The notes beneath the pieces are model-generated. The model ran no database searches. It was not told the origin of the DNA and saw only the letters and a program-made list of their open reading frames with translations. A DNA stretch of 64,000 nucleotides from positions 1,508,777-1,572,776 of the forward strand of contig AP018180.1 in NCBI GenBank assembly GCA_002368155.1, given 5' to 3'. This DNA is from Nostoc carneum NIES-2107 (GTDB taxonomy: Bacteria > Cyanobacteriota > Cyanobacteriia > Cyanobacteriales > Nostocaceae). The translations under genes and the position numbers were made by a program. This document shows, in pieces, positions 19,602-29,212 of the stretch; the stretch's first letter is position 1, and every line of letters begins with the position of its first letter.

Positions 19602-20402
19602 TTACTGTGAAACAATCGGTTGCGTTGCTACGTTACTTAAACCGATGCTATTGATTAAATTTTGCCATTCGGCTTGCAGCTTGCTATCGTTAGGATTCTT
19701 TTGACGCAATTGTGCCAAAATTGTCACTGTTTCGTACCAAATGCCATTTTGGGCATAAATGGCTAGCTGCTGTTGGGGTTGAGCTTTTTCTAATTTTTGA
19801 GCGATCGCCTGATTTAAATTTACTCGCTGAATTACGCCTTCCACAAAAATCGGCGGCGATTGTTTTTCTGGATCGCAAGAGACACTCAGAAACCAGCGAT
19901 ATTGTTTATTCAATTCCAATGGTGCAACCGTTTGCGGTAGAGAAACGCTGATAACTCCCGGTTGCTTGGGTGGAGCGATCGCAGTTTGGTAAATTTGCTT
20001 GTCGCCTTCACCTTGTAAAGTAAACTCCACTTGATTACTCCAATTTTTTGGTAATGGTAGATAAAACCAAAAAGTTGGATGTGCGGCTGTCGTTAATCCC
20101 CAAACATCCTCAGTTGAGTCCGCTTTTTTAATAAACGGTACTAAAGCTGTCAGTTCAGGTTTAAACAGTGGACAAGTACCACGTTTGGCTCCTCCCAAAA
20201 CGCGACCCCCTGGAGGTGGTTCTGGTGGCGGCGTGGGTACATTAAAGTTAACGGTTGTAATAGTAGTGTTACTTGACTTTGTATTGATTAGCTGTCTAGA
20301 GGTTCCTGGGCCTGCAACAATTGATGTCTGTCCCAGCAGTATACTAGTGCAACTAACAGCTAGTGCTAAAGACAATTTCATTGGTGATGAAATGAATTTC
20401 AT
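19602..20402 (-). CDS. DUF928 domain protein, secreted
   Basis: 266 residues with an N-terminal signal peptide (MKLSLALAVSCTSILLGQTSIVA region; an alternative internal ATG at residue 8 also fits). A proline-rich stretch (VPTPPPEPPPGGR) leads into the DUF928 start, GGAKRGTCP. The body is beta-rich with the typical HPTFWFYLPLP, followed by a helical, TPR-like C-terminus. DUF928 is a cyanobacterial family of unknown function. In my recollection of cyanobacterial genomes it often sits beside DUF1822 and CHAT/CHASE2 genes, as here. It is downstream of the CHAT-CHASE2 gene on the same strand, across about 145 bp of heptamer repeats. Confidence 0.85.
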   Translation of the reverse strand: MKFISSPMKLSLALAVSCTSILLGQTSIVAGPGTSRQLINTKSSNTTITTVNFNVPTPPPEPPPGGRVLGGAKRGTCPLFKPELTALVPFIKKADSTEDVWGLTTAAHPTFWFYLPLPKNWSNQVEFTLQGEGDKQIYQTAIAPPKQPGVISVSLPQTVAPLELNKQYRWFLSVSCDPEKQSPPIFVEGVIQRVNLNQAIAQKLEKAQPQQQLAIYAQNGIWYETVTILAQLRQKNPNDSKLQAEWQNLINSIGLSNVATQPIVSQ

Positions 20403-20547
20403 AGGATTTACTGGGAATAAAAGATGGAATTTGGTAATGGGTAATAGGTAATTGGTAATGGGTAATTGGTAATGGGTGTTGGTAATTTCTCCTCATCTTC
20501 CTCATTTCCCTCATTTCCCCAGCCCCCAGTCCCCAGTCCCCAATTCC
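20403..20547. repeat. Short tandem (STRR-type) repeats
   Basis: Runs of GGTAATGGGTAATTGGTAAT, CCTCATTTCCCTCATTTCC and CCCCAGT/CCCCAAT fill the space between the DUF928 and CHAT-CHASE2 genes. CCCCA(A/G)T is the STRR1 heptamer of heterocystous cyanobacteria. Confidence 0.8.
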
Positions 20548-22235
20548 CTAAATATTTTCCCGGATTAATTTTGAATTTTGAATTTTAAATTTGGAATTTT
20601 GGACGAGTATCACGCCAACTGTGCCTACTAATGAAGCAGATGCGGGTATGAAAGGTACCCAAAAACCCCAAATTAATAGACCAAAGCAGAATAAATACAG
20701 TACACCTGAGGTAAAGCCAACTGCGATTACTAATGAGGATTGGGAAGATATTCGCCAAGTTAGTAGTCCGCCAATGAAAGACCAAATCCAAATCCAGAGG
20801 ATTTCTTGCCAGGGTGACCAAACTTGTAATAAGGGACGATTATCTAAAACTGCACTCAGAAGTTGGCTGACCATGTGGGCTTGTACTATCACTCCTGGCA
20901 TTTGGTGGTCTAAGTTATTACCGTAGGGAGTAGCCCAGTAGTCTGGGAAATCTCCTTTGGCGGAGACACCAATCAACACAATGCGGTCTTTAATGGCTTT
21001 GGGGTTGACTTGTCCAGAGATTAACTGCGTCAGGGTTACCTGTTCCGCTATTTTTTTAGTGGAACGATAGTTGAGTAAAAGTTGACCGCCGTTAGCATCA
21101 ATACTTTGATAGCCACTAGCACGGGATGCAAGCCGGGGTAATACTGTTTTGCCTAGTTGTAACTGTTTTTGTGGGGTAAAGGTCGGTTGAATTCCTAAAG
21201 GTAAGAGATAGCGGAATGCTAATTGGGTACTGAGTGCATAGTGCGTAGTACACAATGATGCTGCTTCTGGTGTCATGAATAACAGCTGGCGGCGTACTAC
21301 CCCATCTTTATCGTGCAAAAAGTCGCTAAATCCTTGGCGTTCTACTGGAATTTCTGGGGGTGGGGCAATGCCTTTAGTTTTTTCTGTGGTATCACTTCCT
21401 TTACAAACTCCTATTAAGTTATCGGTTTGTTGCAGCCGGGAGATTAAATCTTTGGGTTCGGCGGCAAAATCACGGTAAATATCTAAACCAATGGCCCGGG
21501 GTTGATACTTTTGCAGTGTCAGCAAAAGTAGGTTGAGTGATTTATCTGAGAGCGAAGTTCCTTTTAACTCTTCGCGATTTTGGCGTTGAAATGCTAGGTC
21601 GCTATCGTCAATGGTGACTAATAGCAACCGCGAATCTGGCCCTTCATCAGGACGCGATCGCATCATTTGATCGAAGGCTTGAAATTCTAAACCTTGTAAT
21701 GTTCCCAAAAATCTCAATCCGCAAACAATCGCAGTCATTACCACGCTGGAGAAGAATGCTACTTGAAATCCGGGTTTTGTTACTAAAGGTAAACTGGGGT
21801 TGGCTTTTTTGTAGGTGCGTGTCAAACAATCCCAAGTCATTGGCGGTTGTGAGGGATTTTGAAAAATCACTGGTAACCAAGTTGCACAGGGAAATCTATC
21901 TTCTAGACCTTGTAGGCGTTCTCTTGCTTGCCTAACTGCTTGATATAAAAGGTCACCACCTGCAAAACTGCCCAGCAGATACTTTAAAAACTCTTGCGCT
22001 ACGCGATCGGGGATAGGTTCTCGCATGACGATCATTTGCGGTATTTGCAAATCTGCGAGTTCTGTTGCCAATCCCAATCCATCACAGGAGTTGAAAATTG
22101 CTAATTGTAAGCCGCGTTCAATGGCTTTTTTCAAGGCATATTTTAATTCACCAATTGTCAGGCTATCTGTTTTATTTAAAAATATTCGCCCAGTCCCATC
22201 TTTACCTTGACTGGAACTATGCCCGGCGAAAAATA

Positions 22236-22243
22236 GAATATCC
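22236..22243. repeat. Target site duplication, left copy
   Basis: GAATATCC abuts the left IS end and is repeated exactly at 22999-23006. Eight bp is a usual duplication length for the IS1 family. Confidence 0.9.
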
Positions 22244-22998
22244 GGCGTTGCATAATAGAGGGATGAATTTAGGTGCGCTACTGTGAATTGTCCATACTGC
22301 GGCTCTACTGAGATTAGGAAAAATGGCTGGCGACGAGGTAAACAGAATCACATCTGTACTAATTGCGATCGCCAATTCATTGATATCTACAGCCCACCAA
22401 AAGGATACTCAGATGAGAAGAAAGTAGAATGCTTAAAAGCATACGTTAATGGTGCAGGCTTTAGAGCAATTGAACGTCAAACAGGGATTCATCACACGAC
22501 GATAATTAACTGGGTAAAACAAATCGGCGAAAAGTTGCCGGAGGCACCGCCAACAGATAAAATACCATCCGTTGGGGAATTAGATGAACTAGAAACTTTT
22601 GTGCGGTCAAAAAAAACAAAATTTGGATATGGACGGCGTTAGACCACTTTAATAGGGGAATTTTGGCTTGGGTTGTAGGAGACCATAGTGCAGAAACCTT
22701 TAAACCTTTATGGAATATTGTTAGCCTCTGGGGATGCTATTTTTACGTCACAGATGGATGGCCTGTTTACGCTAGTTTCATTAACCCAGGAGACCATATT
22801 ATTAGCAAAACATATATGACACGAGTAGAAGGAGAAAATACACGTTTACGCCATTATCTGGCACGTCTACATCGCAAAACATTATGTTACTCCAAATCTG
22901 TAGATATGCTTAAGCTATCAATTAAATTGTTACTACATTACCTGAAGTATGGAGAAATACCCGTATTTAGCTAATTCATCCCGCATTTATGCAACGCC
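22244..22998 (+). mobile_element. IS1-family insertion sequence, complete (755 bp)
   Basis: Terminal inverted repeats are GGCGTTGCATAATAGAGGGA on the left and the complement of GGCGTTGCATAAATGCGGGA on the right, continuing as GATGAATT. It is flanked by the 8-bp direct repeat GAATATCC. It carries one two-frame transposase gene and nothing else. The ends are intact, so the element should be mobile if the transposase is made. Confidence 0.95.
22283..22974 (+). CDS. IS1-family transposase InsA/InsAB' (programmed frameshift)
   Basis: Frame 1 (22283-22642, GTG start, 119 aa) is the InsA-like part: a zinc-ribbon CPYCGSTEIRKNG...CTNCDRQF followed by a helix-turn-helix (GAGFRAIERQTGIHHTTIINWV). Frame -1 continues to 22974 as InsB. 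An A8-C run at 22609-22617 is a good slippery site for a -1 shift. The fused product then reads KIWIWTALDHFNRGILAWVV, giving the first DDE aspartate, followed by VTDGWPVY (second D) and RVEGENTRLRHYLARL (E). The frameshift is the normal IS1 way to make transposase, not damage. Confidence 0.92.
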
Positions 22999-23006
22999 GA
23001 ATATCC
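22999..23006. repeat. Target site duplication, right copy
   Basis: Exact copy of GAATATCC at 22236-22243, directly after the right end of the IS. On the minus strand the original site read GGGATATTC within the codons for W-D-I-L. Confidence 0.9.
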
Positions 23007-23786
23007 CAGTTTTTTTCCCAAAGATGATCGGTTAATTCTTTGCGTTCAGGTTCTACTAACAAGCAGACATCTGCATTGCGACAGCGTTGTAGTAGTTCTA
23101 AATCAGCATGAGTATCAATTCCTTCGCTATTACCCACGATCGCCAAAATATTCACCACTTTATTGGGGGTGCGTGACTTTGGTATGCGCTCATAAGTTGG
23201 AGATGATAAAGCAATTTCGGCTTTAGGGTAGCGTTCTAGTAAGTCCCAAAGATGCCAAGGTAATCGCTGTAATTGGCTATTTTCTGCTTGCAAAATTACC
23301 CGCACTTGGTCTGTAGGCAAGAGGCTTTCTAGCCATTTTTCCCGGATGGGGCGAAATTCTTCTGCTCGCAGCCAAGTATTGAAGCGTGCCCGTAAAATAT
23401 GAGAGGTATTCAGGCAGTCTTGTGTCATTGACACATTCGTTATCTGTACTTTATCTGCATCTAGGCGATAACCATTACCTAAACGACGATAACTAGTTTG
23501 CCAGTGACTATAATATAGGGGAATTTCCGGACATGGCGGCAGCTTACCCATAATTTCTGTGGTGGGGCGATCGCATTCTTCACCAATTTGGAGGGTAACA
23601 GCAAATCCTTGCTCGAAACTACCGTATGCAAACTTCAGAACCACTAACTTACTCATGACAGTCGCTGCACTCCAATTGAAAATTCAAAATTCACAATAGT
23701 CAGCCTGGAATTTTGAATCGCCCAGTGTGTTTAAATTATCACATCCCAATTACCAATTACTGACAATGGGGAAAGTAGCTGCACCT

Positions 23787-24755
23787 TCAGATCACAAACT
23801 GTTCTGTAATACTGATATCATTAAATGCTACTCTGACGCTAAACATTTCTTTGGTCACACCGCGAAACTGTAACTGAATGTAATTGTCGGCGCTTCTGGC
23901 TTGCGCTTCTAAAAATACTGCGCCTGATTCATCTAAAACTATGAGTTGCACTCCTGGTGGTAAAAAATTTAACTTCCCTGTGGGATGTAACTGCAGACGA
24001 ATATGGGTTTTTTCGTTAGCTTGGGGGCAAAGTTCCACAATCAACATCAGGGGTTTATCGGCAATTTGAATGCCAAAATCCATCAATTTTGCCCGCCTAG
24101 TAATTGTTTCTGGCCGATGCGAAGTTTCTTGTTCAAAAGTTTCCGGGCCGCGAAACCCATAAGCTAGTTGAGGTTCTTGAGAATTCCACAAACTTTCGAT
24201 AGTTTGCCAACCGGATTCAAATATACCAGCCAACCACTGACTTAAATTTACTGGCTTACTGGCTGAAGATAGTTTTAATTGTGCTAAATGTTCAAGGAAG
24301 GCTTCAGGAGATTTTAATTTACTCAAAGACAGTTCTTCCGTATCCACACTGGCCACAAAACCCAGCAATTTTGCTTCTAGTAGGGATTCATCAATTTGCA
24401 CAACTATGTAACCTATGCGTTCTTCCCATGTTTCGGGGGGAACAGCACAAGTATTTTTTAAAACACCTACAGGACGACATTCCAAACGACCCAATCCGGG
24501 TATAACTAAGTCAGCGATATCTGCAAATAGGCGCATTACAGGATTCCAACTATCACTAGCGCTGAGATTGGTTTCAATCTCCATCATTTGCAAATAATCG
24601 TTGACTACCAACACAGCTAAGGTATTGAGCCTCACTTGTGCTGCTTTTTCGGGAGTGGGTTGTTGGTTGGCAAACTTTTGTGCAGTTGTGCGTGCTGCTT
24701 GAGCGATCGGCAAGGGTACAGAGAAATTATCTAGGTGATAAATGGTATGAGTCAT
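23787..24755 (-). CDS. DUF1822 family protein
   Basis: A cyanobacterial family of unknown function. 322 residues from ATG 24755 (MTHTIYHLDNF), preferred to the open-frame start at 24791 because GGGGAC lies upstream. The family core is clear: PEKAAQVRLNTLAVLVVNDY, then SASDSWNPVMRLFADIADL and GRLECRPV (~30-100), with WEERIGYIVVQIDESL after it. The C-terminal ~100 residues are beta-rich. There is no signal peptide or membrane helix, so it is probably cytoplasmic. It lies 130 bp upstream of the CHAT-CHASE2 gene on the same strand and is probably co-transcribed with it. Confidence 0.88.
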   Translation of the reverse strand: MTHTIYHLDNFSVPLPIAQAARTTAQKFANQQPTPEKAAQVRLNTLAVLVVNDYLQMMEIETNLSASDSWNPVMRLFADIADLVIPGLGRLECRPVGVLKNTCAVPPETWEERIGYIVVQIDESLLEAKLLGFVASVDTEELSLSKLKSPEAFLEHLAQLKLSSASKPVNLSQWLAGIFESGWQTIESLWNSQEPQLAYGFRGPETFEQETSHRPETITRRAKLMDFGIQIADKPLMLIVELCPQANEKTHIRLQLHPTGKLNFLPPGVQLIVLDESGAVFLEAQARSADNYIQLQFRGVTKEMFSVRVAFNDISITEQFVI

Positions 24756-25259
24756 ATAGTTAAGTCCCCAGTGATCAATGCTGCTATACACATATCAACT
24801 GCATTCACTAAATTTATGCCAAAAAATTGGAATTATTAAATTTTTGTGATCAAATCCGAGAAGTCATAATTTCGCTCAATTATGAATGAATTATGAATAA
24901 TAAATTATTGATTATCAACTATCAATTATGAATTAATTATCAATTCAAACACTCCTTGAAAGCGACTATTTCAATTTAGTCATGATAATGATACAGGAAT
25001 CATATTTGATTTCTGCAAAGCTAGGAATAGCTTATACAAATTTTGGATTTTAGATTGCGGATTTTAGATTGAAACCCTTTAAAACAAGGCGGTTACAGGA
25101 TTTTAAAACAATCCTACATATCCCAAGTTGGTATTAATTACTTGTTGCCTCATGTGAAAGTGCTCAGTCACCGAAGTTCAGATGCCTGCGGCAAGCCGCT
25201 ATCGCGTCTACGGCGGAAGCCGCCGCTCCGACTTCTCGCTGAATAAAAATTCCATTCTC

Positions 25260-25359
25260 ATACCAAATCAAATAATGTTTGCGACACATCAATATATTTT
25301 AGAGGGCAAGGCAGTGCCTTGCCCCTACAATCTGTTGCATTCTTTTTTCAAATTGGTAT
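25260..25359. repeat. MITE-like element, hairpin family GGCAAGGCA (copy 2, complete)
   Basis: 100 bp with inverted ends ATACCAAATCAAA and TTCAAATTGGTAT. The core is TGTTTGCGACACATCAATAT plus the hairpin GGGCAAGGCAGTGCCTTGCCC. It is the most complete copy of the family; others are at 19338-19422 (inverted) and 59887-59956. Confidence 0.7.
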
Positions 25360-25676
25360 CACTTTCATGTATGGCAGTAAAATTTTCTTGGTGAGGCTGT
25401 CATCTTCCTAAAGAAGTATTTTTTCCTAGGTTATGTGAAAATACAGTTCAGTTAAGAAAATTAATTGATCACAAAACCAAAAAACAGAACAATACTTTTG
25501 GAGGGGGTTTGGGTGACGGTTGCGTCCCCCAATCGGGGGTTTGGGGGATTTTCCCCCAATTTATCTGGCTTCTTTAATAAGTGACCAATCAATCGCTAAT
25601 GAGCTTAACTGAAATGTATTGGGTTATATGAAACAGGAAAAAAAAGATGAGGGAGCAGAGGAAGCAGGGGAGAAAT

Positions 25677-25742
25677 TCCCATTACCCATTACCCATTACC
25701 CATTACCCATTACCCAATCCCCAATCCCCAATCCCCAATCCC
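25677..25742. repeat. STRR heptamer array
   Basis: Several CCCATTA units followed by CCCCAAT units, ending right at the stop codon of the TPR-CHAT gene. Confidence 0.85.
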
Positions 25743-25745
25743 CCT

Positions 25746-28397
25746 TTACAACCAATTCCCAATTAATACATAAGCCGACCAATAAGAAGGTGCTTTGTAG
25801 TTAGAGTGTTGCAATAATTTTAACTGTGCATGACGGAGAGCTTGGGCTTTAGTAACTTTCTTGCTTTGCAGTTGTTGATAGAAATCACCCACAAACATAG
25901 CTGTGGATTGATCGTCAATTTGCCACAAAGATGCTACAGTACTGCGCGCTCCGGCTCTGACTGCGGCTCCAGCTAAACCCAGTGCGGCGCGGTTATCTCC
26001 GGCGGCGGTTTGACAAGCACTTAACACCAATAGTTCCACTGGTTCTGGTTTGGTTTCATCCCGAGTGCGGAGTAGGTTATCAAATTGCTTCACATTGATG
26101 GCACCGTCAGCAGCTAAGATAAATGTGTCTTCGGCGCGGGAGCTAAATTGTCCGTGAGTTGCCAAATGTAGAATGTTAAAGGGAGCTTGATTAACTTGTT
26201 TTGCTAATGCCTTTTGGGTAAATTTTTCATCTAAGAGATCAGTTGTAGATACTCCAGCTTTTGCAATTAAACCCACTTCCGATTTAATTGCAGGTAACGG
26301 TGAGAAGTTAGGGAAATCTGGCGGGGGTTCTGTTAAACCAGCAGTTAAAGCTCGCAACTGCTGTGTTTCTATAGGTTTGGGATTAAGTAATTGCAATCCT
26401 ACACTAAGTGCGATCGCATATTTCTCTATTAAATATTGTTTACCATCGTAAAGAGATGCCATTGGCAAGTTGCGTAATGCGCCATCTAGTACAAATACGA
26501 GGGTATTTACTTTATTTTCTGGTAATTGTGATTCAATAGGTTTAATTAGCCAGTCATAAACCTGTTTTCCTTGGGTTTTAACGGCGTTGTTCGCAGTAGG
26601 ATTAACTAAATTTCTTCGCAGTTCTGCCAAAATTTTGTTAACTTCCGCCTGGGGAATTTGGGTACTGTAATGCTGTAGGGGTTTTTGGGGGATTTTGGCA
26701 ATTACCTGAATTTCTTGCGGGAGAATAATTGGATAAAGAATTGCTGCATTGGGATTATCTTTATCTACGACTTGATCTAAAGCCACACTCTGTCCTAATA
26801 GACAAGCTTCCCGAAAGAAGTTATCTAATTCTGCTAACTGTAAAGCCTCGATGCGCTGGCGTGCTTTATCTAAAATTTTGTTATCAGCTGTTCCTGCTTG
26901 GGATTGCAGCAACAACTCTACAGACTCTCGATACACTGGTTCCACACTATCGCGGAAGCTAAATTGCACATCCTGATTAATTGCAACCAAGTCCCGACGC
27001 AGAGAATTGAGAGTTGCTACTGCCCCATCATAAGCCGCGATCGCTTTTGTTAAATCATTTTGTGCCCAAAAAATTCTGCCTAATTGCCACTCTAAGCGAT
27101 AAGCTATTTCCGGTGCATTGTTCGTTTGCGCTAAGACTAACGCTTGTTTAGTTAGCTTTTGCGCCTCTTGCCAATTTTGGGCTTGCTCGTACAAATTAGC
27201 TAAACTGCCTAAAGCATAAGCCTCTGTTTTTTGATCCCCCAAATTGCGAGATTGTTCAATAGCAGTGGTGAGTTGCAGAGACGCGATAACCCTTGTCTGT
27301 ACAAGATTGCTGAGTTGGGATTGAGATGTTGTTAGTTTGTTGAGGCTTTGGGCGAAGTTAATGGCGGCGTAAATACTTGCACGGCTGGGGGGGAGTTGTG
27401 TAAGCTGGGATTGGATCGTGGGTAATAGGGTTTCGGCTGTGGAAAGCTGTTTATCTTCGATGAGTAGGCTGAGAAGATTTAGCTGTGCCTGTACTTTGGT
27501 TAAAGGTGAGGGGGATAATTGCACAGCTTTTTGATAATTAGCGATCGCTTCTGCTGTTTTCTGCTGTGTGCGGGCGTTGTTTCCTAAACTGAAAAGAATC
27601 GCCCCAATCTCTGCATTTGATGGTAAGCTTTTGGCAATTTCTTGACTTTGCTGTAAGACAGCTTCCGACTTTTTCCCATCGCCTATGGCTAACAGGCTAT
27701 CTCCAAGCGATCGCAATCCTACGGCTTTTTCTATAGAATTGGGCTGTGATTGTAGTTTTTGATGCGCTTCTTCTAGTATTTCTACAGAGCGCAAATAAGC
27801 GCCTTGGCTTCTCCAAGCCTGTGCTTGATTAATCAGCGTCCGCACTACGCCCGATTCGTTCTTTAGCTGCGTATAAATTTTTGCTGCTTGTTGCCAAGTT
27901 GCTAAAGCCGCCTCCGCCTGTCCCGTGGCTAATTGCAAGCGTCCTTGAATATCTAAAGATTGCGCGAAGATTTGCAGATTTTGGCTGTTTTGTTCGACCT
28001 TGAGCAAATTCAAACTATCTGTAATTGCCTTTTGTGCTTCCTGCCAAGCACCGAGTTGCTGGTAAGCTAGGGAAAGATTACTCAAAGTTGCGGCTTGTTT
28101 GATGCGATCGCCTTGATTTTGATATTCCTTCACAGCTTGCTGCAATACCTGCACCGCCTCACTAAACTTTCCTGCATCGTAAAGCAGTTTACCCTGTTGC
28201 AGTAGGGAAGTTGGATTTGCAATTTCTTTAACAATCGGTTGAGATGAAGCAGCAATTCCCGGAACCACCGCCATGATTGGTGAACTCAAACTGCACAGCA
28301 AAGCCATAATAAAGTAAATAAACATGCGGAAAAATTTGATTTTTCGCTTATTTTCTCCGGAATAACTGGCTATAGACAATTGAGTTACTTTCTTCAT
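25746..28397 (-). CDS. Secreted TPR-CHAT protein (caspase-like protease domain)
   Basis: 883 residues. The N-terminus has a basic stretch and a hydrophobic core (MFIYFIMALLCSLSSPIMA), i.e. a signal peptide or anchor. Residues ~65-440 are many tetratricopeptide repeats (for example LLQQGKLLYDAGKFSEAVQVL and AATLSNLSLAYQQLGAWQEA). Residues ~600-883 are a CHAT domain with an intact dyad, H748 in LHLATHGQFSS and C795 in LSACQTAAGD, followed by the typical LAGAAVRAGARSTVASLW and the ending YWSAYVLIGNW. CHAT domains are caspase/separase-like cysteine proteases that usually cut a specific partner. The partner is unknown; a location outside the cytoplasm is inferred from the N-terminus. It lies upstream of the DUF1822 gene on the same strand. 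Confidence 0.93.
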   Translation of the reverse strand: MKKVTQLSIASYSGENKRKIKFFRMFIYFIMALLCSLSSPIMAVVPGIAASSQPIVKEIANPTSLLQQGKLLYDAGKFSEAVQVLQQAVKEYQNQGDRIKQAATLSNLSLAYQQLGAWQEAQKAITDSLNLLKVEQNSQNLQIFAQSLDIQGRLQLATGQAEAALATWQQAAKIYTQLKNESGVVRTLINQAQAWRSQGAYLRSVEILEEAHQKLQSQPNSIEKAVGLRSLGDSLLAIGDGKKSEAVLQQSQEIAKSLPSNAEIGAILFSLGNNARTQQKTAEAIANYQKAVQLSPSPLTKVQAQLNLLSLLIEDKQLSTAETLLPTIQSQLTQLPPSRASIYAAINFAQSLNKLTTSQSQLSNLVQTRVIASLQLTTAIEQSRNLGDQKTEAYALGSLANLYEQAQNWQEAQKLTKQALVLAQTNNAPEIAYRLEWQLGRIFWAQNDLTKAIAAYDGAVATLNSLRRDLVAINQDVQFSFRDSVEPVYRESVELLLQSQAGTADNKILDKARQRIEALQLAELDNFFREACLLGQSVALDQVVDKDNPNAAILYPIILPQEIQVIAKIPQKPLQHYSTQIPQAEVNKILAELRRNLVNPTANNAVKTQGKQVYDWLIKPIESQLPENKVNTLVFVLDGALRNLPMASLYDGKQYLIEKYAIALSVGLQLLNPKPIETQQLRALTAGLTEPPPDFPNFSPLPAIKSEVGLIAKAGVSTTDLLDEKFTQKALAKQVNQAPFNILHLATHGQFSSRAEDTFILAADGAINVKQFDNLLRTRDETKPEPVELLVLSACQTAAGDNRAALGLAGAAVRAGARSTVASLWQIDDQSTAMFVGDFYQQLQSKKVTKAQALRHAQLKLLQHSNYKAPSYWSAYVLIGNWL

Positions 28398-28794: not shown

Positions 28795-29003
28795 AGTGTT
28801 ATTACAGAACGCCAAGCCTAAACCAGACTAAGCACCAGGATGCGATCGCAAACTCTACAGGCGATCGCACATTCTCACTCAGACACCAATAGTACAGATA
28901 ATTGTAAGGGCAGGCAGTGCCTTGCCCCTACCCGAGACACTGTATTATTGAAGGTAACCAAATAAATGCGATCGCACATCCCCCATAAATAAGCGATCGC
29001 TCT
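28795..29003. other. Intergenic repeats after the 65-aa gene
   Basis: No gene. HIP1 octamers recur (e.g. ATGCGATCGCA, GGCGATCGCAC). A partial hairpin GGGCAGGCAGTGCCTTGCCC at about 28909-28929 is related to the GGCAAGGCA element family. Confidence 0.45.
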
Positions 29004-29212
29004 GTAAACTAGCTTTTGCAACTCGCAAACTAGCACTTGCAACTCACAAACTAACACTTGTAACTCGCAAACTAGCACTTGCAACTCACAAACTAACACT
29101 TGCAACTCGTAAACTAGCTTTTGCAACTCACAAACTAACACTTGCAACTTGTAAACTAGCTTTTGCAACTCGCAAACTAACACTTGCAACTCGCAAACTA
29201 GCTTTTGCAGCT
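29004..29212. repeat. 21-bp minisatellite, about 10 units
   Basis: The unit is GCAACTCGCAAACTAGCACT plus one T, with variants ACTCACAAACTAACACTTGC and AACTCGTAAACTAGCTTTTG. Period is 21 bp, so it stays open in frame on the minus strand as a heptapeptide repeat (LVCELQV/LVYELQK). I regard it as a DNA repeat, not a gene, because the frame lacks a credible start context. It ends about 175 bp before the gene at 29387. Confidence 0.85.

Follow-up and report, generated by a model that had tools for sequence, protein, structure and literature searches.

A sensor-protease gene cluster that recurs across cyanobacteria lies within the 64,000-nucleotide stretch of Nostoc carneum NIES-2107 analysed here (contig AP018180.1, positions 1,508,777 to 1,572,776; hereafter the window, from a genome totalling 9.36 Mb). 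A first-pass annotation had described four co-oriented genes at positions 19,602 to 28,397 of the window, encoding TPR-CHAT, DUF1822, CHAT-CHASE2 and DUF928 proteins, as a possible undescribed protease-sensor system; all four do lie there on the minus strand, and their domains were confirmed by Pfam. The proposed linkage and the pairing of sensor with protease both stand, but the conserved core consists of a sigma factor, DUF1822, CHAT-CHASE2 and DUF928, with TPR-CHAT as a looser neighbour, and the sigma factor, the most constant companion of DUF1822, had been overlooked. The cluster is real and conserved, and 'undescribed' was only partly right, as its core has already been predicted in silico (PMC8195603). 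The mechanism that we tentatively put forward is plausible and holds somewhat less than even confidence: the sensor-protease would control a DUF1822-sigma pair and thereby turn an outside signal into gene expression. This reading builds on computed domains, gene order, linkage, active sites, a sigma-like neighbour, a two-domain model of DUF1822 and an insertion.

DUF1822 was present in 94 of the 145 genomes of the class and in none of 14 control genomes. Neighbourhoods were compared for 74 anchors (72 loci), picked from the best DUF1822 matches together with loci of the window's own genome; these are neither random nor independent, as several share a single genome and others are nearly identical. 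A held-out set drew 43 anchors in 40 further loci from the same DUF1822 list, with short DUF1822 proteins favoured. A sigma-like gene lay directly 5′ of DUF1822 at 68 of the 74 anchors and at 41 of the 43 held-out anchors, one of the two held-out misses being a 93-amino-acid (aa) fragment and the other lying at a contig end. Genes were called mechanically, such that the sigma gene of locus L157 was dropped by an overlap rule though present, while that of L061 lies four genes away. Within five genes of DUF1822, the 74 anchors yielded EACC2-CHAT proteins (an EACC2-like N-terminal domain with a CHAT domain) in 45 cases, CHASE2 in 32, DUF928 in 30, another CHAT protein in 23 and two-partner secretion (TPS) genes in 14, with all four families named by the first-pass annotation present at 15. 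These counts far exceed chance, where that annotation had allowed that the families might prove unlinked in other genomes.

Neighbourhoods were also compared from the side of the sensor-protease. Among 80 CHASE2-type EACC2 anchors from named genomes (79 loci, several truncated by contig ends; the best of 560 matches to a query from the window's clade), DUF1822 was the next gene 5′ in 64 and DUF928 the next gene 3′ in 67, with a sigma gene within four genes in 49, another CHAT gene in the locus in 31 and TPS in 24. The first protease within three same-strand genes 3′ was EACC2-CHAT for 36 of 68 sigma-DUF1822 pairs and 37 of 41 held-out pairs. Two sigma-like families precede DUF1822, termed sigL (~400 aa) and sigS (~220 aa) here, and 57 of the 60 sigS-DUF1822 pairs had a protease detected by hidden Markov model (HMM) within three same-strand genes downstream (first protease: 50 EACC2-CHAT, 2 other CHAT, 3 trypsin-like, 2 M48); of the remaining three, L294 has an M48 gene downstream by Pfam, L302 is at a contig end and L153 has none. 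While EACC2-CHAT, DUF1822 and the sigma factor stay constant, the sensor part varies, from CHASE2 to Peripla_BP_6 and nSTAND1-WD40 and, weakly, HEAT and PsbP-like domains. EACC2-CHAT is fused to Peripla_BP_6 in L146, L055 and L167, and the binding-protein-like sensor of L146 may be cytosolic, as it has no predicted membrane segment. In L210 and L211, one sigS is flanked on both sides by DUF1822-EACC2-CHASE2-DUF928 clusters, which are arranged head to head.

DUF928 follows CHASE2. It lay within five genes at 28 of the 32 anchors with CHASE2 nearby versus 2 of the 42 without (Fisher p = 7e-14), and at 21 of 27 versus 0 of 16 in the held-out set (p = 4e-7). In the window's genome, six of eleven DUF928 places were within 6 kb of CHASE2, against a random mean of 0.2 and with none of 4000 draws as high; two of the eleven score under the curated cut-off, and one of these two belongs to the six. 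The other five were not near CHASE2, and 8 of the 14 CHASE2 genes had no DUF928 within 6 kb. DUF928 also adjoins CHASE2 proteins of other types, in L118 a histidine kinase and in L114 a GGDEF-EAL protein. Since its CHASE2 neighbours thus carry protease, histidine kinase or GGDEF-EAL outputs, DUF928 accompanies the sensor, not the output or DUF1822. For DUF928, a search of mostly open-licence papers returned only PMC5587647, whose available portion notes one CHASE2-DUF928 cluster and refers to a DUF928 protein that responds to acid stress; beyond that cluster we have not seen the partnership described.

In the window, the cluster and the element that interrupts it comprise the following features:

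25746-28397, minus strand: TPR-CHAT protein, 883 aa; Pfam CHAT (E = 1e-58) plus TPR; N-terminal hydrophobic stretch at residues 20-51, likely exported
26154-26156, minus strand: His748 codon of TPR-CHAT, computed from the start of the open reading frame (ORF); motif LATHG at residue 745
26013-26015, minus strand: Cys795 codon of TPR-CHAT, position derived in the same way; SACQ motif begins at residue 793
24792-24821, minus strand: promoter-like block TGGCATAAA-N16-GATAT upstream of DUF1822
23787-24791, minus strand: DUF1822 protein (PF08852); Pfam E = 6e-87; start probably ATG 24752; no hydrophobic segment
22976-23656, minus strand: 5′ piece of CHAT-CHASE2; carries an EACC2-like N-terminal domain and the beginning of CHAT before reading into the element
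22999-23006, no strand: 8-bp target duplication, first copy in gene order, GAATATCC
22244-22998, plus strand: IS1-type element, 755 bp; ORFs 22283-22642 and 22663-22974, the second matching DDE_Tnp_IS1
22236-22243, no strand: 8-bp target duplication, second copy in gene order, GAATATCC
20548-22243, minus strand: 3′ piece of CHAT-CHASE2; remainder of CHAT, membrane segment, CHASE2 and C-terminal membrane segments; first start codon 22134
22219-22221, minus strand: codon for the catalytic His of the interrupted CHAT domain (L061 numbering: His225)
22084-22086, minus strand: codon for the catalytic Cys of the interrupted CHAT domain (L061 numbering: Cys270)
19602-20402, minus strand: DUF928 protein (PF06051), 266 aa; Pfam E = 1e-68; N-terminal hydrophobic stretch at residues 12-30, likely exported

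Both CHAT families keep their catalytic pairs. The His748 and Cys795 claimed for TPR-CHAT fall exactly on their motifs, and the His225 and Cys270 given for CHAT-CHASE2 in its restored frame match the intact L061 homologue. Loss of these dyads in homologues had been named as a possible refutation; in EACC2-CHAT the pair was kept in 46 of 46 proteins of a first alignment and in 127 of 127 aligned proteins of at least 440 aa, a count that leaves out shorter EACC2 ORFs (the window's, L298, L300 and L324, of which the two shortest may be broken copies), and TPR-CHAT-sized proteins (750-1100 aa) carried His and Cys motifs in 54 of 54 under a loose pattern. The EACC2-like N-terminal domain was found in 45 proteins with an HMM grown from the window piece, which is not the EACC2 profile of the PMC8195603 authors.

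HetF is a cyanobacterial CHAT protein with a protease role; L061 scored 24.5 bits against the HetF family (NCBIfam NF045509), which has a cut-off of 1200, and assignment to HetF was rejected. The nearest named relatives of the window CHAT-CHASE2 protein are from cyanobacteria, chiefly Nostoc and its kin.

The window's own sensor-protease gene is truly broken, as the call for a restored frame had implied, and the cause is the 755-bp IS1-type element, flanked by inverted ends and the target duplication. At least 11 full-length copies of this element, the window copy included, occur in the genome at about 100% identity (40 of 58 candidates scored). The upstream piece has zero Pfam matches of its own and loses its frame five codons before the catalytic His, while the downstream ORF (20548-22134) retains CHASE2 (E = 6e-66) and the end of the CHAT domain at 24.5 bits (cut-off 24). 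Because the frame is lost before the His, and the His codon (22221-22219) precedes the first downstream start codon at 22134, this copy is probably inactive. The gene is uninterrupted in the close relatives L053, L059 and L061, and the same genome holds two more clusters (L051 and L115), each with a sigma gene, DUF1822 and an uninterrupted EACC2-CHASE2 gene. With its key gene broken, the window locus is of smaller value by itself.

The sigma gene of this cluster has moved elsewhere. Its sigS orthologue lies 2.5 Mb off (G000:C1:4054517-4055164, 405 bits) and adjoins a 458-aa gene that also stands beside sigS in L070 and L061 (77% and 74% identity), so a rearrangement separated it from the cluster. 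Sigma stands beside the cluster in L059, L061, L070, L198 and L201; sigS is parted from DUF1822 by TPR-CHAT in L070, by TPR-CHAT and a restriction-modification pair in L061 and by TPS and TPR-CHAT in L059, while L198 and L201 show the order sigS, TPR-CHAT, DUF1822. The L061 pair, which lies between TPR-CHAT and DUF1822 (L061:10567-12788), encodes a C5 DNA methylase and a restriction enzyme of the Bpu10I type. A sigma-like gene was found in only 5 of the 22 closest named loci (L197-L218), some of which are short contigs. Elsewhere in the window's genome, the 221-kb contig C3 carries sigS, a DUF1822 shortened to 252 aa, a TPR protein of 1034 aa and two CHAT matches (G000:C3:75491-87558, L123).

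Both sigma-like families were compared with known sigma factors. Two of three sigL members tested scored as sigma-70 above the NCBIfam cut-off (E = 1e-27 and 3e-31), the third, the divergent L056, giving no sigma match, and the sigL profile retrieved sigma factors among solved structures (best E = 1e-11). The AlphaFold2 model of sigS has two helical domains joined by a flexible linker (predicted local distance difference test, pLDDT, 83; predicted template modelling score, pTM, 0.46), and 23 of its top 24 Foldseek matches are described as sigma factors or transcription complexes, mainly extracytoplasmic function (ECF) sigma factors, with a best E of 0.029. Its profile matched RpoE weakly (E = 0.031), with regions sigma2 and sigma4 in order. 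We take sigS to be a divergent ECF sigma factor, which would bind RNA polymerase and promoter DNA. In L252 (L252:6400-8973) and L249, from Scytonema/Rhizonema metagenome-assembled genomes, sigS forms the rear part of a fusion with a NACHT-HEAT STAND protein (each 858 aa; Pfam on L252 only), the fusion sitting directly 5′ of DUF1822 and EACC2-CHASE2.

The DUF1822 gene and its identity were assigned correctly by the first-pass annotation, with the start in need of correction. The clade shares a promoter-like block before DUF1822, whose TGGCAT core occurs in 25 of 29 upstream regions. In the window this block extends exactly to the GTG that had been taken as the start, so that translation probably begins at ATG 24752. 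As a sigS regulon motif the block was not retained: its exact form occurs once in the genome, with nine more sites at one mismatch, compared with three in all for a reversed control. The DUF1822 model, built from 61 sequences, has high mean confidence (pLDDT 89, pTM 0.72) and places an alpha/beta domain (20-205) and a beta-sandwich domain (231-334) on either side of a poorly predicted linker (~205-230, pLDDT about 50-62). Linker column 214 holds Arg in 55 of the 61 sequences and Lys in 3, and an alignment-free form of the linker motif occurred in 52 of 61 linkers (mean 23.7 and maximum 36 in 1000 shuffles), making this Arg a candidate cut site. The DUF1822 proteins of L057, L066 and L165, where Lys replaces Arg, are 75-82% identical and so probably represent one lineage. 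A sequence profile of DUF1822 found no solved relative and no Csx30 chain in the PDB. Foldseek matches to the model were weak (best E = 1e-3), mostly covering about 100 columns of beta-sandwich proteins; the anti-sigma sensor domain of RsgI4 was one of these many matches (E = 0.02), and Csx30 was not among the 50 listed of 1032. A literature search of mostly open-licence papers returned no paper on DUF1822 function.

We propose that CHASE2 would sense a signal outside the membrane and bear the caspase-like EACC2-CHAT protease inside, with exported DUF928 probably joining in signal reception at the CHASE2 domain. On signal, the protease would act on cytosolic DUF1822, most likely a two-domain regulator of the neighbouring sigma factor and probably its anti-sigma factor; once DUF1822 was cut or displaced, perhaps at the conserved Arg of its disordered linker, the sigma factor would be freed and its genes switched on. 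The window copy would probably no longer signal, with its sigma gene elsewhere and its sensor-protease gene broken. This is the simplest reading because Csx29, Csx30 and CASP-sigma set a precedent (PMC10028731, available portion). In its widest form, which we consider unlikely, a large cyanobacterial family of receptor-proteases with one caspase-like domain and interchangeable sensors would cut DUF1822 at the linker Arg and free a dedicated sigma factor, as a receptor-driven counterpart of the Craspase, Csx30 and CASP-sigma system. DUF928 would then partner CHASE2 sensors on the extracytoplasmic side, irrespective of whether these act through a protease, a histidine kinase or a cyclic-di-GMP enzyme.

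Several observations weigh against this proposal. DUF1822 and a sigma gene often occur without a protease: 23 of the 40 sigL-DUF1822 pairs of the first set had none detected by HMM in the next three same-strand genes, although among these L169 has a CHAT protein by Pfam and L132 a divergent EACC2-CHASE2 gene. The proteases that take the place of EACC2-CHAT fit poorly, as those of L057, L165 and L294 have an N-terminal hydrophobic stretch, that of L173 has membrane segments and that of L066 seems, judged only by eye, to start with a signal peptide; such trypsin-like and M48 proteins are not simple stand-ins for a cytosolic protease. sigS has no Pfam match, its profile match to sigL is weak and its Foldseek template modelling scores are low (about 0.2-0.3), and the 14 places matched by Pfam Sigma70_r2 in the window's genome include neither the sigma-like genes beside DUF1822 nor the relocated sigS. 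No sigma gene or remnant was found in the 64-kb window, the 955-bp gap between TPR-CHAT and DUF1822 included; the best hit in this search had E = 0.2. Foldseek gave no full-length match of DUF1822 to a known anti-sigma fold. The region of the Arg column is gappy, with a replicate giving Arg or Lys in 58 of 73 sequences and Arg at the next position in 12 of the other 15; a looser check found the motif in 38 of 43 in the held-out set. What we infer is the topology, that DUF1822 binds and inhibits sigma and is cleaved, where the cut would fall and what DUF928 does.

Two further lines of evidence were not taken as proof. Distances between sigma factors and DUF1822 correlate (r = 0.77 and 0.89), but those with EACC2 are similar (0.74-0.75 for sigma, 0.83-0.84 for DUF1822) and relatedness inflates all of them, so the correlations are not decisive for a partnership. 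Exchange of the protease, as in L057, L066 and L165, where sigS-DUF1822 is followed by a trypsin-like (Trypsin_2) protein, was likewise weakened as proof, since most such proteins look exported or membrane-bound.

Unlikely is the explanation that the cluster is a conflict or cell-death system close to the view of PMC8195603, in which the sensor-protease would activate itself and effectors upon invasion or damage and the sigma factor would be a secondary output. Section 9 of that paper places EACC2-caspase among counter-invader systems and proposes autopeptidase activation, and relatives of the cluster encode an EACC2-CHAT-nSTAND1-WD40 protein (L064) and the NACHT-HEAT-sigS fusion of L252. However, the pairing of DUF928 with CHASE2 histidine kinases and GGDEF-EAL proteins looks like environmental sensing, and PADLOC, run on six proteins, returned only weak TPR, BovA and CARF-type similarity and assigned none of them to a defence system. 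More doubtful is the idea that DUF1822 would assist the sigma factor, as its positive cofactor or scaffold, with the CHAT protease cutting another target. The many sigL-DUF1822 pairs that lack a nearby protease and the absence of a recognisable anti-sigma fold in DUF1822 would suit such a role, whereas the disordered linker with its conserved basic residue fits a cleavable regulator, though it could also bind a partner.

The two-CHAT relay of the first-pass annotation, in which exported TPR-CHAT would be activated or make a signal that CHASE2-CHAT senses, drew no direct evidence and is very improbable: TPR-CHAT does stand beside the cluster in the window's clade (L053, L059, L061 and L070), 6 of the 22 closest named loci contain a CHAT gene at some position, and 6 of the 14 CHASE2 genes of the window's genome have a CHAT gene no more than 6 kb away (random mean 0.76; three of the six carry a fused CHAT of their own), but a second CHAT, mostly TPR-CHAT-sized, was within five genes at only 23 of the 74 anchors compared with 45 for EACC2-CHAT, CHAT is tied to TPS (8 of 44 CHAT matches within 6 kb, random mean 1.2), TPS-CHAT fusion proteins exist, and TPR-CHAT in the window, 955 bp from DUF1822, is probably transcribed apart from it. 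The fusions join a TPS secretion domain and CHAT in one protein (L137:13652-18118, L287 and L323; 1489, 1647 and 1974 aa) and adjoin a sigma-DUF1822-EACC2-CHASE2-DUF928 cluster. Twelve TPS-domain genes occupy about 39 kb of the window's genome (G000:C1:2837757-2876642), and upstream of TPR-CHAT a minus-strand ORF built of LVCELQ repeats (window 28875-29189) is probably a minisatellite, not a gene.

If true, control of a DUF1822-sigma pair by a sensor-protease would give a function to three uncharacterised families, DUF1822, DUF928 and EACC2, which recur together across cyanobacteria, and would add direct proteolysis by the sensor to phosphorylation and cyclic-di-GMP as a readout of CHASE2. It also names a precise and testable cut site.

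The closest described system is that of Kaur et al. 2021 in eLife (PMC8195603), of which section 9 describes EACC2-caspase proteins with variable C-termini, CHASE2 among them, near ECF sigma and DUF1822; both of the latter are nearby in the majority, not all, of the cases independent of TRADD-N. The cluster shares the caspase-like domain, the variable C-terminus including CHASE2, DUF1822 and sigma, and has a conserved N-terminal domain that may be the same as theirs. In the window, the CHASE2 C-terminus is present and DUF1822 adjacent, but unlike those neighbourhoods the ECF sigma gene lies elsewhere, outside the 64 kb, and the protease gene is broken; the locus counts as a variant of that kind because sigma is usual there, not required. 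Section 9 makes no mention of DUF928, TPS or exported TPR-CHAT, and calls DUF1822 a TPR protein, whereas our predicted model shows another fold. To that account we add DUF928 as a CHASE2 partner, the TPS and TPR-CHAT neighbours, the predicted fold of DUF1822, a candidate cut site and the relocated sigma gene.

In Craspase, a type III-E CRISPR system, as described in the available portion of PMC10028731, the TPR-CHAT protease Csx29 cuts Csx30, an inhibitor of CASP-sigma. There too, a CHAT protease is encoded with an ECF sigma factor and with a protein whose two domains are joined by a flexible linker. That system is activated by RNA, whereas here a membrane sensor would activate the protease; moreover, the cut in Csx30 falls within a loop of the C-terminal domain rather than in the linker, and neither the profile search nor the 50 fold matches listed showed Csx30 and DUF1822 to be related. 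RseA/DegS, as given in the same source, also links an envelope signal through a protease and an anti-sigma factor to an ECF sigma factor, but with other proteases and folds, and in the cluster described here the protease would be joined to its own sensor and face the cytosol.

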